A stretch of DNA of 64,000 nt from assembly GCF_018986435.1 (NCBI RefSeq), contig NZ_JAHMIN010000016.1, positions 1 to 64,000 on the forward strand, written 5' to 3'. The first letter of the stretch is position 1. Each line of letters begins with the position of its first letter. Below the pieces are notes generated by a model. It made no database searches, was not told the DNA's origin, and was given only the letters and a program-made list of their open reading frames with translations. The DNA is from Hahella sp. HN01 (GTDB lineage: Bacteria > Pseudomonadota > Gammaproteobacteria > Pseudomonadales > Oleiphilaceae). Of this stretch, positions 5,459-14,423 are shown piece by piece. The position numbers and the translations under genes were made by a program.

Positions 5459-5923
5459 ATGTCCGCCGATCTGAAAGTATTTATTGATCTGCTTAAACAG
5501 GATCTACAAACTCTCTCCCAACTTGAAGATGTGCTGCAGCAGGAACGCGACTCTCTGGAGCAAAGCGATATTGAAACGCTGCAGCGCATCATCGAATGCA
5601 AGCTCCCCCTCCTGCAACAAATCGAAAGCCATGCGCGCACTCGTACGCAGTGGGTCAGCAAAACCGGTCTGCCCATCGATCGCTTTCTCTCTCTGCTGAA
5701 GGAAAAAGCGCCTCCCGTGATGAAGCTTTACCGCCAGTGCGAAAGCAGCCTCGCCAACATACACAAGCTGAATGAAGTCAACGGACGCATTATCGCCCGC
5801 TCACAGCAGCGCACGACCAAGATGATGCAGATCATCCGCGGCCAGTCCCAGCAAATGCAGCTGTACGGCAAAAACGGCGTGGAGAAAAGCGTTGGCGACG
5901 CCCAGGCCATCGCGCAGGCTTAG
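5459..5923 (+). CDS. flgN: Flagellar export chaperone FlgN
   Basis: 154 aa, almost wholly helical and rich in Leu, Gln and Glu, typical of the FlgN chaperone for hook-associated proteins FlgK and FlgL. It starts at ATG 5459 after GAGGG, 18 bp behind flgM, the conserved flgMN pair. In Pseudomonas a PilZ-domain gene (flgZ) usually follows; here none does, and the next gene is on the opposite strand. Confidence 0.93.
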   Translation: MSADLKVFIDLLKQDLQTLSQLEDVLQQERDSLEQSDIETLQRIIECKLPLLQQIESHARTRTQWVSKTGLPIDRFLSLLKEKAPPVMKLYRQCESSLANIHKLNEVNGRIIARSQQRTTKMMQIIRGQSQQMQLYGKNGVEKSVGDAQAIAQA

Positions 5924-5935
5924 ATTCCTGGACAT

Positions 5936-5961
5936 AAAAAAGGCCGCAAACTGCGCGGCCT
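5936..5961 (-). terminator. Rho-independent terminator of the MshEN gene
   Basis: AGGCCGC (5941-5947) pairs with GCGGCCT (5955-5961). Read on the minus strand, the stem is followed by six T residues (A run at 5936-5941). It serves the minus-strand gene ending at 6044; the plus-strand orientation lacks a T tract for flgN. Confidence 0.8.
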
Positions 5962-6043: not shown

Positions 6044-6802
6044 TCAGTAGGGTTTCACCACGATATACGAGTTATCGCTAAACTCGATCCCTTCCAAATG
6101 AATACTGCCCATGGTGGGACCATCCGCCGATACCCCCATCGGCCGAATATTGTTGAAACTGACCCGCTCGATATGATTCGGAAGCGTCACGTTCATGCCG
6201 CCGTCTTCATTAAACAAAGGTTTGATGCGGGAGGGATCGATTTGCACGCCGACCACTTCAACTTCGGCGTCCAGGACATTAGTGATTGGAAGCAATAGTT
6301 TTCCGAGAGACCCGAGCACCTGAACCCCGTCCAGCCCAGGCAATTCATCAGGATTATCAGAATTCTGACCTTCCAGCTGGGCCTTCGCGGCCATGTTGTA
6401 AAATTGCTGGAACTCTTCAGTGAAACCCTGCGCGCCGACATTGCTCATTTCACTGTCATCCAGCGCCTGCAGCCCCGACGCATTTTGATACAGGGTTTCA
6501 GAGGCTACCGGTGAAGATTCATTTTCAGACTGAGAGGCGGCGAACGCCACCATGGGCTGGAACGGCGCCACGGCCATAGCGACGAACGCCGCGGCGTAGC
6601 GATACCGGCTTTGGTGCCGGAGGGTACGTTGCAGCTCCTTGTCAGTTATCCAGCCAAAATCTACTAGCAATTCACCAAGGCGTTGACCATTAACGGTCTG
6701 CGCCGTTAATGCTTCATTAAGCTGACCTTCGGTAATGTATCCCCGGTTCACCAGGAGGCGACCTAGGCGGGATCTTTCAATAGCTTGCTGCTGAGTCGCC
6801 AT
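6044..6802 (-). CDS. Membrane protein with MshEN cyclic-di-GMP-binding domain and DUF6160-like exported part
   Basis: 252 aa. Residues 12-35 (RLGRLLVNRGYITEGQLNEA plus LTAQ) and 41-64 (RLGELLVDFGWITDKELQRT plus LRHQ) are two 24-residue MshEN motifs separated by a 5-residue spacer, the arrangement known to bind c-di-GMP in MshE/GspE ATPase N-termini. No ATPase follows. Instead there is a hydrophobic segment (about 69-89), then a stretch LQALDDSEMSNVGAQGF (111-127) like the start of DUF6160-type exported proteins, and a beta-rich tail. Predicted topology: sensor in the cytoplasm, tail outside. The ATG follows AAAGGAG. It is divergent from a diguanylate cyclase gene. Motif assignment is strong; function is inferred. 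Confidence 0.78.
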   Translation of the reverse strand: MATQQQAIERSRLGRLLVNRGYITEGQLNEALTAQTVNGQRLGELLVDFGWITDKELQRTLRHQSRYRYAAAFVAMAVAPFQPMVAFAASQSENESSPVASETLYQNASGLQALDDSEMSNVGAQGFTEEFQQFYNMAAKAQLEGQNSDNPDELPGLDGVQVLGSLGKLLLPITNVLDAEVEVVGVQIDPSRIKPLFNEDGGMNVTLPNHIERVSFNNIRPMGVSADGPTMGSIHLEGIEFSDNSYIVVKPY

Positions 6803-7121
6803 GACTATAACTCCTTTTTTATTGAGTAGTAGCTCTTTAATAATGGAAGATGTTTAAAACTTGTACACCCGAGATAGGTTAATTTTTGTATGGGTTTTGC
6901 TATCGCCTACAACCAAGTATTAATGACTTACTACCGAGTATTAGCGGCCAACGCCGCAATATCTCTCGCCACAACGCCTAGATGCCTGAAACTTTTAAGG
7001 AATTTCTAATAATTTGTCGCTTATAACGCTGGCGGTAAAAGCATGGTTGGTTACACTTTTATAGAAGAGCCGGTTTTCAATACCTGAGACGCTTGCAGCA
7101 ACCACACCCCAGGGGGCGGAT
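6803..7121. other. 319-bp divergent intergenic region (MshEN gene / diguanylate cyclase)
   Basis: No coding region or RNA gene seen. It must hold the start signals of both divergent genes. AGTATTA occurs at 6916-6922 and again at 6937-6943, 21 bp apart (two helical turns), a possible regulator site. I found no match to a c-di-GMP riboswitch. Confidence 0.4.
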
Positions 7122-8429
7122 TTGTCATTACCGAACAGTCACCAGGATATGTCCGCAGATACCGCGACCTACGTTCGCAGACTGCTGGACAACGGCATGC
7201 ACGGACTGCAATTCGAAGGCGAATTGGAAAGCGAGTTTGAGCGTTATCACTTGAACCGTTATCTGCATCTGAACCGGGTATACCCACTACTGGGCGCGCT
7301 GGTGCTGGTGTTCTTCACATTCGCCGATCATTTAGTGATTCCCGCTCTATTTGAACAAACCCTGCAAATCAGAGTAGCGGACGCTCTCGGCATCATTCTG
7401 GTGACGCTGGCCAGCCGACTCGCCTGGGTGCGCAATCGTTATCAGATGACCCTGTGCCTGGGGGCGTTGTGCATTCACCTAAGCCTGATCGCCATCGCCA
7501 TGAAGGCCGCCGCCATTGATCAGTTTCATTACCAGACCGGCTCGATCATCTCCGTCATATTCGTCTGCACGGTGCTGCGCCTGCAGTTCCACTACATATT
7601 TCCCTTTGCCCTACTGATGTGGCTGTCCCAGGTGCTGGCGATGCACTTTCTCATGCATCTGCACGCCTCGCAGTTCACTGAGCTGCTGTTCCTGCACACC
7701 TTTGTCACGCTGATTTCAGTATTGGTGTGTTATCGGGTGGAATACGAAACCCGTAAAAACTTCCTGCAACAGTTGCTCCTGCTGTATGAGCAAGAAGAGC
7801 TGCGCGCCGCCCATGCAGAACTGGAGCGGCTTTCCTTGATGGACAGCCTGACCCAGGTCGCAAATCGCCGCCACTTCAACAAAAGTCTGGAGACGGAATG
7901 GAATCGTTGCCTGCGCGACGACAAACCTCTGGCGCTGTTGATGGTGGATGTGGACTTCTTCAAAGCCTATAACGACGCCTACGGACATCAGCGTGGCGAC
8001 GACTGCCTCATTAATGTCGCCGACTGCCTGACGCAAACGTCTCGTCGCGCCGCCGACTTGGTCGCCCGCTACGGCGGCGAAGAGTTTGCCGTCATTTTGC
8101 CTCATGCGGATCAGGCGTCAGCGCAGCGTCTAGCGGAACAGATTGTGCGCCAGATCTACGAACTCAACATAGAGAACGAAGGCTCACCGGAGCTGAAACG
8201 CCTGACCGTCAGCGTAGGTTTCAGCGCGCTCGCCCCATCCCAGGGCGACGCCCCCAACACATTGATTTCTCAAGCCGACAGCGCGCTTTACATGGCAAAA
8301 CGAAAAGGTAAGAATCGTGCCCACGGTTTTCCCGCCAACGAGACCTCTGAGACAGCGGAACCCGTCAGCTCAGAGGACGAAGGCGAACCGAACATCCACG
8401 ACGAATCCGAAAGCAATGGAGAAATCTAG
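7122..8429 (+). CDS. Membrane-bound diguanylate cyclase (GGDEF)
   Basis: 435 aa from TTG 7122, which has AGGGGG five to six nt upstream; ATG 7149 is an alternative. About six membrane segments (near 54-72, 84-100, 107-127, 138-153, 158-178, 187-205) lead through a short helix to a GGDEF domain (about 236-402). The active-site loop is GGEEF (318-322), so it should make c-di-GMP from GTP. RAAD (309-312), five residues before it, is a complete RxxD inhibitory site, so product feedback is expected. The C-terminal tail is acidic. The stop TAG overlaps the GTG of the next gene by one base. Confidence 0.9.
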
Positions 8430-11538: not shown

Positions 11539-14223
11539 TCAGCAGTCTCCGTTAGGGTCCGCCCGGCAGGCGGCGTTCAAGTCCACGCCATCGACAGTGG
11601 AGAGCGCCTTCAGGGTTACCGTCACGCCGCTGTCAGTCTGGGCTTCTTCCACCGAGATCAACTTAGCGCTGCCGAAGGTGGCCAGATTAGAGAGCTTTTC
11701 GTTGGCCGCCGCGCCGCGCTGGAAACGCCAAATACTCTTCAGCTTATTTACCTGCTCGCCTTCGCCCGGCTCTTCCCCGTCATCCAACACTTCTTCTTTC
11801 ACAATGTCATAACGGGCCAGCCAGCCGTCCTCACCGCCCTGAGCTGCGCCAGCGTCAAATATATCCCCCGCCGTCACGCCTGACACATACACTTCATTGC
11901 CCAGGGACTTAACATCCAGCACAGAGTCCGCCGCCGCGCCGCCGATTTGCGCATAGGCCGTAATCTCACTGGCGTTTTGATGGTAGGCGAGGTAACCGTC
12001 CTGGCCGCCGCGATTGCTCTCTCCACTGACCAGCACGCCATGGGTGTAACCAGCGGAGACGAAACCTTTACTCACCGTACTGACATCGAGCGCCGCATCG
12101 TTAAAGCTGGAGCCGATCTGAGCCACACGGCGAGGATCGCCATCGTCGTTATAGGACACAGCAACGGCGTCATAGCCGCCAAGACTGGAGCCGTTATCCT
12201 CCACCGCGCCATCGCTGAAACCGACGACATTATGATTGGAGGAGGACTCCGGCGACGCTCCCAGCAACACATCGTCACCAGAGGAGCCAAAGGTTTTGGC
12301 GAACATGAGAGCGCCGTTTTTATCAAACTTAATCAGCATGGCGTCGCGACGCCCGGAGTTTTCGCCTTCACCAACCAAGCCTGACGTTGCGCCGACCACC
12401 AGCACTTCCTGACTGAGGTCGACAGACAAGGCGCCGGGCTCGTCATCCCAAACGCTGCCAATCTGCTTGGCCCACTGTAATTCGAAAGCGCCGACATTAT
12501 TGATGCGCTGATACTTCTGCACCACCACATCCTTACCGCCCAGGTCGCTTTCCTGCAGCGGCTCCACGGGAGGCGCGAACAAACCGCCCACCTCAAGTAG
12601 CGCGTATATATCCTGGGTGATCTCATCCTCGTTGGCCGGATTGATCTTCTCATACAACCAGATGTCTTTGATGCGCACGGCGTAGGTCGCCGCTTCCAGC
12701 TTAATGCTCTGATGCAAGACGCCAAAGCGGTCATAGATCATGATGTCCGAGTTAACAGGTTTGCCGCCTTCTTCACCATTCATTCGTGCAAGAAACAGTT
12801 CCGACTGGGACCCCGAAATCGCCTCGGAGACGCTGGCGCCGCTATTGAGCGGCAACTCCACCGCATTCAACCATTGGTTTATGTAGACAGCCAGAGGCTC
12901 TTCGTCAGGATTCACCGTGCCGCTGCGTCGCCAATTAAAGGTCACTTTCTCATCCCGCAACGTAGCGTCGCCATTCGCCGTCGCCTGCAGCTTGACGGTT
13001 TTACTGGTTTCGCCCGCCTCAAAAGGCACGCTGACGCCGTCCGTAATCAGGCTGCCTGCCCCACCGTCCCCGGTATAAAGACGCAAATCCGCATCTGCGC
13101 CCTCAAAGTCGCCGTCGCTGTTATCCGCATCCACGACAAACTCTGCATAAACCGTCTGTTCCGGCTCCTTATCCAGCGTCACTTCCACATTCAGATAATT
13201 GCCTTCCGACACCGACGTCTTGGACACCTTAAAGCTGGCGACAGGCTCATTGTCTGTGATGGAGATAGTGGTATTGACCGGATCGGCGAACTCAAGCAGC
13301 CCACCTTCGTAGTGAGTGATCGACACCGCAATGTTCTCAGTTTTTTCCGCATCGCGATCGTCATTAATAAATACCGGAATATGACAGTAACGCACGCCCG
13401 GATCATAGGTCAGAAAGCCGTCCGCAACAGGGACGACCAGCCCGTCTTTTCTCGCTGTCTCGATAAGAAAATCGCTTCCCGGCGTCGCGCCGTCGCCCGA
13501 ACCGCTGGTCAGAGAGTAGCGCAGTATGACGCGCTGAACCGAGGGCTGCTCCAGAAATACCGGCAGGTAGTGGAGCTTGGGACGCACCGCCAGCGAATCA
13601 TCCTGCTGACGCTGTTCAAAGAAAGCGATGTCTTCCTCAGAGAACAGCGGCGTCCCTTCCGCGTCGGTGAAGCACAGCGGAATGACTTCCTTTTCCTCGC
13701 CCTCGTCTTCCCGACCGTTATTGTTGGCGTCGATCAACTTCGAGGGACGCTCGCCAACGTCGTTTTCCGCGACCGTCAGCGCTTCCGATTCATAGGTATT
13801 GGTGTCGACGAAAATAGAAAAGCGGGTCTCTCCTACACTGGAGCCGTCAGACACCGTCAGCGAAACTTCCTGCGCCTCGCCAGGCGTCAGCGCGTCTTCC
13901 GCCGTTCCGCCTCCATTAACGCCGGGAATCCCCCGCATAATAACGCCTTTGCGGAAGGTGTTGTCGACGTACTCCAACGCCAACCAGCGCGGCTGGTTGG
14001 TCATGGAAAAGTCCACCAGCCCATCGCCGCCGTCCACACCAAACTCATAGGTGTATTCAACGCCCAGATAAGCGGTTCCTGGTGGTTTTCCCAATATGCG
14101 AATGGCTTCGGGCGGCGCGGTATCGCTGCCGCAGGAGGCGAGTAGTAGAGAAGTGATAACCAGCGCAGGCGTTTTCAGCGCCAACTTAACTCCGCTGCGC
14201 TGGGCCAGACCCAGGTGACCCAT
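11539..14223 (-). CDS. Large Calx-beta / beta-propeller lipoprotein
   Basis: 894 aa from ATG 14223 (a GTG at 14238 is an alternative). The signal peptide ends in lipobox LLAS with acceptor Cys31, so it is a lipoprotein. An Ig-like N-terminal part (about 40-155) is followed by Calx-beta-type modules (the first ends near VFINDDRDAEKTENIAVS and TTISITDNE, the next begins ASFKVSKTSVSEGNYLNVEV). The C-terminal half has SBBP-like repeats such as DAMLIKFDKNGALMFAKTFG and DAVAVSYNDDGDPRRVAQIG, which suggest a beta-propeller. Very acidic and Asp/Gly-rich, probably calcium-binding and surface-exposed. No enzymatic motif seen. Role unknown; adhesion or matrix contact is a guess. Confidence 0.8.
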   Translation of the reverse strand: MGHLGLAQRSGVKLALKTPALVITSLLLASCGSDTAPPEAIRILGKPPGTAYLGVEYTYEFGVDGGDGLVDFSMTNQPRWLALEYVDNTFRKGVIMRGIPGVNGGGTAEDALTPGEAQEVSLTVSDGSSVGETRFSIFVDTNTYESEALTVAENDVGERPSKLIDANNNGREDEGEEKEVIPLCFTDAEGTPLFSEEDIAFFEQRQQDDSLAVRPKLHYLPVFLEQPSVQRVILRYSLTSGSGDGATPGSDFLIETARKDGLVVPVADGFLTYDPGVRYCHIPVFINDDRDAEKTENIAVSITHYEGGLLEFADPVNTTISITDNEPVASFKVSKTSVSEGNYLNVEVTLDKEPEQTVYAEFVVDADNSDGDFEGADADLRLYTGDGGAGSLITDGVSVPFEAGETSKTVKLQATANGDATLRDEKVTFNWRRSGTVNPDEEPLAVYINQWLNAVELPLNSGASVSEAISGSQSELFLARMNGEEGGKPVNSDIMIYDRFGVLHQSIKLEAATYAVRIKDIWLYEKINPANEDEITQDIYALLEVGGLFAPPVEPLQESDLGGKDVVVQKYQRINNVGAFELQWAKQIGSVWDDEPGALSVDLSQEVLVVGATSGLVGEGENSGRRDAMLIKFDKNGALMFAKTFGSSGDDVLLGASPESSSNHNVVGFSDGAVEDNGSSLGGYDAVAVSYNDDGDPRRVAQIGSSFNDAALDVSTVSKGFVSAGYTHGVLVSGESNRGGQDGYLAYHQNASEITAYAQIGGAAADSVLDVKSLGNEVYVSGVTAGDIFDAGAAQGGEDGWLARYDIVKEEVLDDGEEPGEGEQVNKLKSIWRFQRGAAANEKLSNLATFGSAKLISVEEAQTDSGVTVTLKALSTVDGVDLNAACRADPNGDC

Positions 14224-14423
14224 AGATGTGCATTCCACGCTTTATTATTCAAGTTTTACAAAATCTTATAAAACTTTGTTTTTTGTAACCACAGCAGGGG
14301 GCCAGAAACCCAACCGGGATCACACTGCCGCCTTTTTATTTGCATCCGATTATTTGTATCCGACAGATAATTCCATTTCTTTGAAAGCGACTAGCACCGT
14401 GCTTATCAGCCCCTGGAATGCAA

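Follow-up and report, generated by a model that had tools for sequence, protein, structure and literature searches.

An MshEN c-di-GMP domain directly before a predicted signal peptide on a DUF6160-like protein of Hahella sp. HN01

One gene of Hahella sp. HN01 (Table 1), situated in the first 64,000 nt of contig NZ_JAHMIN010000016.1 (the whole stretch analysed, hereafter the window), may encode a secreted DUF6160-like protein with a c-di-GMP-sensing export leader, its MshEN domain serving as an enlarged n-region of the signal peptide through which export would be controlled; the probability of this reading is put at about 0.5. The underlying architecture (MshEN, signal peptide, cargo) is well supported by comparison of homologues: the MshEN domain, the signal-peptide features, their conservation and the exchange of cargo are read from sequence, and c-di-GMP binding is taken from the literature on a homologue.

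Table 1. Positions in the window of the gene, its parts and its neighbours.
Feature	Position (nt)	Strand	Basis
Whole gene, 252 aa; MshEN, signal peptide and exported tail (predicted)	6044–6802	-	open in a single frame in every orthologue
Ribosome-binding site AAGGAG, 8 nt 5' of ATG	6811–6816	-	sequence
MshEN c-di-GMP-binding domain, residues 12–64	6611–6769	-	NF053729 1.1e-18; 12/12 contact residues
Signal peptide (predicted), residues 65–88; n-region SRYR, apolar core 70–79, P80-x-Q82, c-region ending A86-F87-A88	6539–6610	-	51-homologue alignment
Predicted mature exported tail, residues 89–252, DUF6160-like	6047–6538	-	DUF6160 matches in 11/20 relatives; homologues with ordinary signal peptides
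Conserved motif GLQALDDSEMSNVGAQG, residues 110–126, start of tail	6425–6475	-	
flgN, convergent; adjoins the gene in this family only	5459–5923	+	PF05130 1.5e-28
Terminator-like hairpin 3' of gene, in convergent gap with flgN	5941–5961	-	pattern match only; chance alone would give a similar number
Divergent diguanylate cyclase gene (GGDEF); possible but not general partner	7122–8429	+	PF00990 2.1e-51

The ORF is a genuine gene. About 30 full-length orthologues, all in one frame and without an ATPase, were found in the family sampled, where 49 of 58 genomes gave some match, and full-length one-frame orthologues also occur in several other families of the same order. The chance that the ORF is a frameshifted piece of a GspE-family ATPase, which the first-pass annotation had itself raised, was looked into in related genomes and is ruled out because the same protein, open in one frame in every orthologue, is found across the order. 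Its statement that no T2SS/MshE ATPase follows the motifs also holds, as the 252-aa protein has no T2SSE match and the one-frame homologues likewise lack the domain. An internal start bypassing MshEN is ruled out by reading of the sequence, ATG, GTG and TTG being absent just before the hydrophobic core.

Judged by profile and residue matches, residues 12–64 are a true MshEN domain. They match the NCBIfam family of MshE-related c-di-GMP domains above its cut-off, with the same span recovered in the genome search, and also match Vibrio MshE (5htl; 1.2e-7) and a PDB chain of PilF. The motif pair described in the first-pass annotation, two 24-residue RLGxxLVxxGxIxxxxLxxxLxxQ motifs with a 5-residue spacer, is present, and all 12 c-di-GMP contact residues (positions from the MshEN structure paper, PMC5013675) are identical to those of Vibrio MshE. 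The contact columns are nearly fixed, with a mean entropy of 0.24 bits versus 1.64 bits for the other domain columns in the 51-sequence family alignment (p=2e-6). The isolated MshEN_N fragment 1–62 binds c-di-GMP at 0.35 uM (PMC5013675). The same 53-residue domain, with 12/12 contacts, is that of MshE, PilB and NfrB (MshEN/GspE-N), but those proteins carry an ATPase or a glycosyltransferase, while here a signal peptide comes directly after MshEN.

Members of the family in Pseudomonas (about 238 aa), homologous to the window protein in both tail and leader, adjoin rplS, thioesterase and antiporter genes, the setting in which P. aeruginosa has PA3740. At the end of their second motif, directly before the signal core, stands LxxALKKQxNLR, which is near-identical to the stretch LKKALKKQTNLR with which PA3740 peptides are reported to bind c-di-GMP (review, PMC8789108); the exact 12-mer was not found in the Pseudomonas members read. 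From synteny and this published motif we infer that the Pseudomonas member belongs to the PA3740 family, PA3740 itself lying outside the genomes read. Binding of c-di-GMP by the window protein is accordingly supported by homology, since the Pseudomonas member matches a reported binder and all 12 contacts are kept. PMC5013675 also names PA3740 among the MshEN proteins, with a link to swarming. PA3740 is probably of the window gene's family and has the LxxALKKQxNLR-type motif that stands right before the signal core in the Pseudomonas members, but occupies another locus, without flagellar genes or a GGDEF gene alongside. Degenerate MshEN domains that have lost binding exist, e.g. that of XpsE (PMC5013675), and some of the cargo groups described below keep only 8–9 of the 12 contact residues exactly, as would suit an MshEN that acts without ligand as a folding, dimerising or targeting element of the precursor; the complete contact set of the window protein, the nearly fixed columns of its family and the reported binding by PA3740 make such a role improbable.

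The segment following MshEN is very probably a cleavable Sec/signal peptidase I signal peptide, cleavage being predicted. In the 51-sequence alignment R68 and P80 are invariant and Q82 nearly so, and the interval from R68 to P80 holds only about 10 apolar residues. Small-X-Ala ends the segment in 51/51 homologues, at positions 86–88 in 47 and, as A-S-A, one residue earlier in the remaining four (Pseudomonas). Only A, S and T occur at position 86, A or G occupies position 88 in 92% of the sequences, and conservation drops right after that residue. Charge in the n-region, a short apolar core, the small-X-Ala site and the fall in conservation behind it are thus all present, and several paralogues have a lipobox in place of that site (LFLAGC, LALAGC, LMLVGC). 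The single membrane segment annotated earlier at about residues 69–89 is therefore real as a hydrophobic stretch, for which a signal peptide is the better interpretation.

The first-pass annotation had proposed a protein that spans the membrane once and stays uncleaved, so that c-di-GMP bound inside would change the tail outside. The hydrophobic stretch is of borderline anchor strength (its best-19 hydropathy, median 1.69, is by itself compatible with a membrane anchor), and AlphaFold2, run with three sequences, drew a single helix over residues 54–90, with low confidence there; the four-helix core of MshEN reached a pLDDT of about 65–78 and the rest was low. The helix breakers P80 and P83 and the polar Q82, however, fall within 69–89, in addition to the shortness of the apolar run. 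A one-piece inside-to-outside switch is unlikely, given the conserved signal-peptidase site at the end of the segment (a lipobox in paralogues) and the ordinary signal peptides found on tail homologues that lack MshEN.

These MshEN-less homologues have signal peptides ending, for example, ...STSAFA/E, ...STAYA/G and ...PVFA/V, so that, as far as sequence can tell, the tail is an exported protein for which the MshEN leader is optional. Some stand in tandem with an MshEN-bearing gene; in one such cluster (L190) an MshEN-leader gene comes first and two tail paralogues, each bearing an ordinary signal peptide, come after it. The union of a non-ATPase MshEN sensor with a predicted exported, DUF6160-like tail, as described earlier, is supported and recurs in related genomes. 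The DUF6160 (PF19657) likeness is weak for the window protein itself (E=0.18, below the curated cut-off) and stands better among its relatives, 11 of 20 of which match (best 5.6e-5). A search for a relative of solved structure gave only a chance-level best match for the tail (E 0.13, plant PR10), and structure prediction, suggested earlier for the tail, yielded low AlphaFold2 confidence outside MshEN.

Searching the order and the class with a profile built from MshEN and the signal region yielded more proteins in the order and a small number in the rest of the class, many with other tails. In an all-against-all comparison of 27 representatives, leaders were homologous in 350/351 pairs, the representatives having been picked by the leader profile so that leader homology, though not tail diversity, was an entry condition; the tails fell into 16 unlinked groups, a count in which small tails may conceal distant kinship. 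Cargoes include DUF6160-like proteins, Ig/FN3 lipoproteins, DUF547 and beta-lactamase2-like proteins, and small proteins; Ig, FN3, beta-lactamase2-like and DUF547 domains are typical of the cell exterior, and many of the short cargo proteins have an aromatic last residue. Five proteins (L066, L067, L069, L070 and L073) are predicted lipoproteins because their core ends in a lipobox. Class- and phylum-wide scans (threshold 1e-15) were biased towards the leader profile, and the spread seen outside Gammaproteobacteria is a lower bound. In a 53-column tree, leader MshENs lie apart from those of ATPases (2 label changes versus a shuffled mean of 19.6), and a single origin is possible; bootstrap support for this tree was not settled and the leader set was selected by its own profile.

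Several members have further features. The genome of HN01 holds a second MshEN-leader protein (L073:4772–6212, contig C91 at about 101452) with a core ending LFLAGC; it is predicted to be a lipoprotein and contains Ig and FN3-like domains besides a Ser/Thr stretch of low complexity. Tandem MshEN pairs precede the signal core in L163, L166, L168, L170 and L127, the cargo of the last being a beta-lactamase2-like domain. Small cargoes (L102, L104, L115, L116, L155–L160, L169, L170) mostly have a beta-like end with a terminal F, resembling the C-termini of outer-membrane proteins. A CheA-like protein of 728 aa in the same genome (L113, contig C80) has an MshEN domain mid-protein.

Signal peptides usually evolve fast. 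In the present family the leader evolves more slowly than the cargo: mean identity is 52% in the signal region versus 29% in the mature part, the former being higher in 96% of pairs. FlgA from neighbouring loci, taken as a control, shows the reverse (18% versus 38%, signal higher in 0.5% of pairs); its start codons were chosen by a simple rule, making the FlgA figure rough, though the contrast is large. A leader with a function of its own once cut off could also account for its slow evolution: the 88-residue MshEN-signal fragment would then remain in the inner membrane, a small receptor for c-di-GMP, with the cargo simply produced in equal amount. Complete conservation of P80 and near-complete conservation of Q82 within the signal, and the pairing of one leader with 16 unlinked cargo groups, are in keeping with this. 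It is nevertheless a lesser possibility, as signal fragments are normally degraded and no stand-alone MshEN-plus-core gene was seen, cargo always being kept in frame.

For the preferred reading, a c-di-GMP-sensing export leader, the following course is proposed, with topology, cleavage and the control of export, including its direction, all inferred. Sec topology keeps the n-region cytoplasmic, and MshEN, which would fold in the cytoplasm, would therefore stay there. Its last helix (LxxxLxxQ) would pass through a link of 3–4 residues ending in R68 directly into the signal core, and the last c-di-GMP contact, Q64, is only 3 residues from R68 and the core. The Sec machinery would insert the core with MshEN held inside, and signal peptidase I would cleave after A88, freeing the tail outside the inner membrane. 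Being so close to the core, c-di-GMP on MshEN might alter the rate at which the precursor is inserted or processed, and delivery of cargo would thereby follow the c-di-GMP level. Many unrelated exported proteins carry this leader, and bacteria may thus tie protein export directly to c-di-GMP. Extended to the whole class, the proposal is a ligand-gated signal peptide, whose n-region c-di-GMP domain decides on export or processing precursor by precursor and which has come to head a dozen or more unrelated cargoes in Gammaproteobacteria; this wider claim is tentative, with somewhat less than an even chance. The anchor-compatible hydropathy and the low AlphaFold2 confidence outside MshEN speak against the leader model, as does the deletion of PA3740, which left biofilm unchanged in fleS/fleR mutants with raised c-di-GMP (PMC8335546).

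Among systems already described, two more come close. The ESPR of autotransporters is likewise a cytoplasmic-side N-terminal extension of a Sec signal peptide common to different cargoes, but it is short and not known to bind a ligand, unlike the folded messenger-binding domain found here. In LapD-LapG signalling, too, c-di-GMP in the cytoplasm is linked to processes beyond the inner membrane, but LapD is a stable membrane receptor, while the sensor here belongs to a leader whose removal is predicted. The c-di-GMP receptors described so far work through transcription, enzymes, motors, secretion ATPases or stable membrane receptors. In the open-access literature searched no description of MshEN joined to a signal peptide, lipoprotein or secreted protein was found, nor any of PA3740 as an exported precursor. 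The earlier view that the system is undescribed thus stands for the export architecture, discussed in no accessible paper, though not for c-di-GMP binding, already reported for PA3740. If correct, what leaves the cytoplasm would be controlled directly and in a very compact way, by a domain that binds the messenger and sits on a removable export leader; PA3740 would gain a mechanism that is concrete and can be tested, and a link to c-di-GMP would be indicated for numerous lipoproteins and secreted proteins that are so far uncharacterised.

The divergent GGDEF gene is confirmed, as is the proximity to flagellar genes (flgA-flgM-flgN). Relatives were examined for whether the architecture always adjoins a GGDEF gene, as the first annotation had asked: such a gene is adjacent in only 7/27 relatives (flgN in 17/27) and is ruled out as an obligatory partner. 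Absence of flgZ from this spot was correctly noted, but the genome has 14 PilZ matches and does not lack PilZ receptors. No c-di-GMP riboswitch was detected near the gene, where sub-threshold Trp_leader and anti-hemB matches lie over the terminator region, and no convincing sigma-28, sigma-54 or FleQ-like site was seen in nt 6803–7121. Beyond mnmC, a large predicted lipoprotein (LLASCGS; nt 11539–14238, - strand) is kept in most relatives. At the start of the window, a tyrosine-type integrase gene (nt 669–1943) adjoins tRNA-Ser(gga) (nt 2057–2147), with a single-stranded DNA-binding protein gene at nt 28–444, and this region resembles one end of an integrated element.
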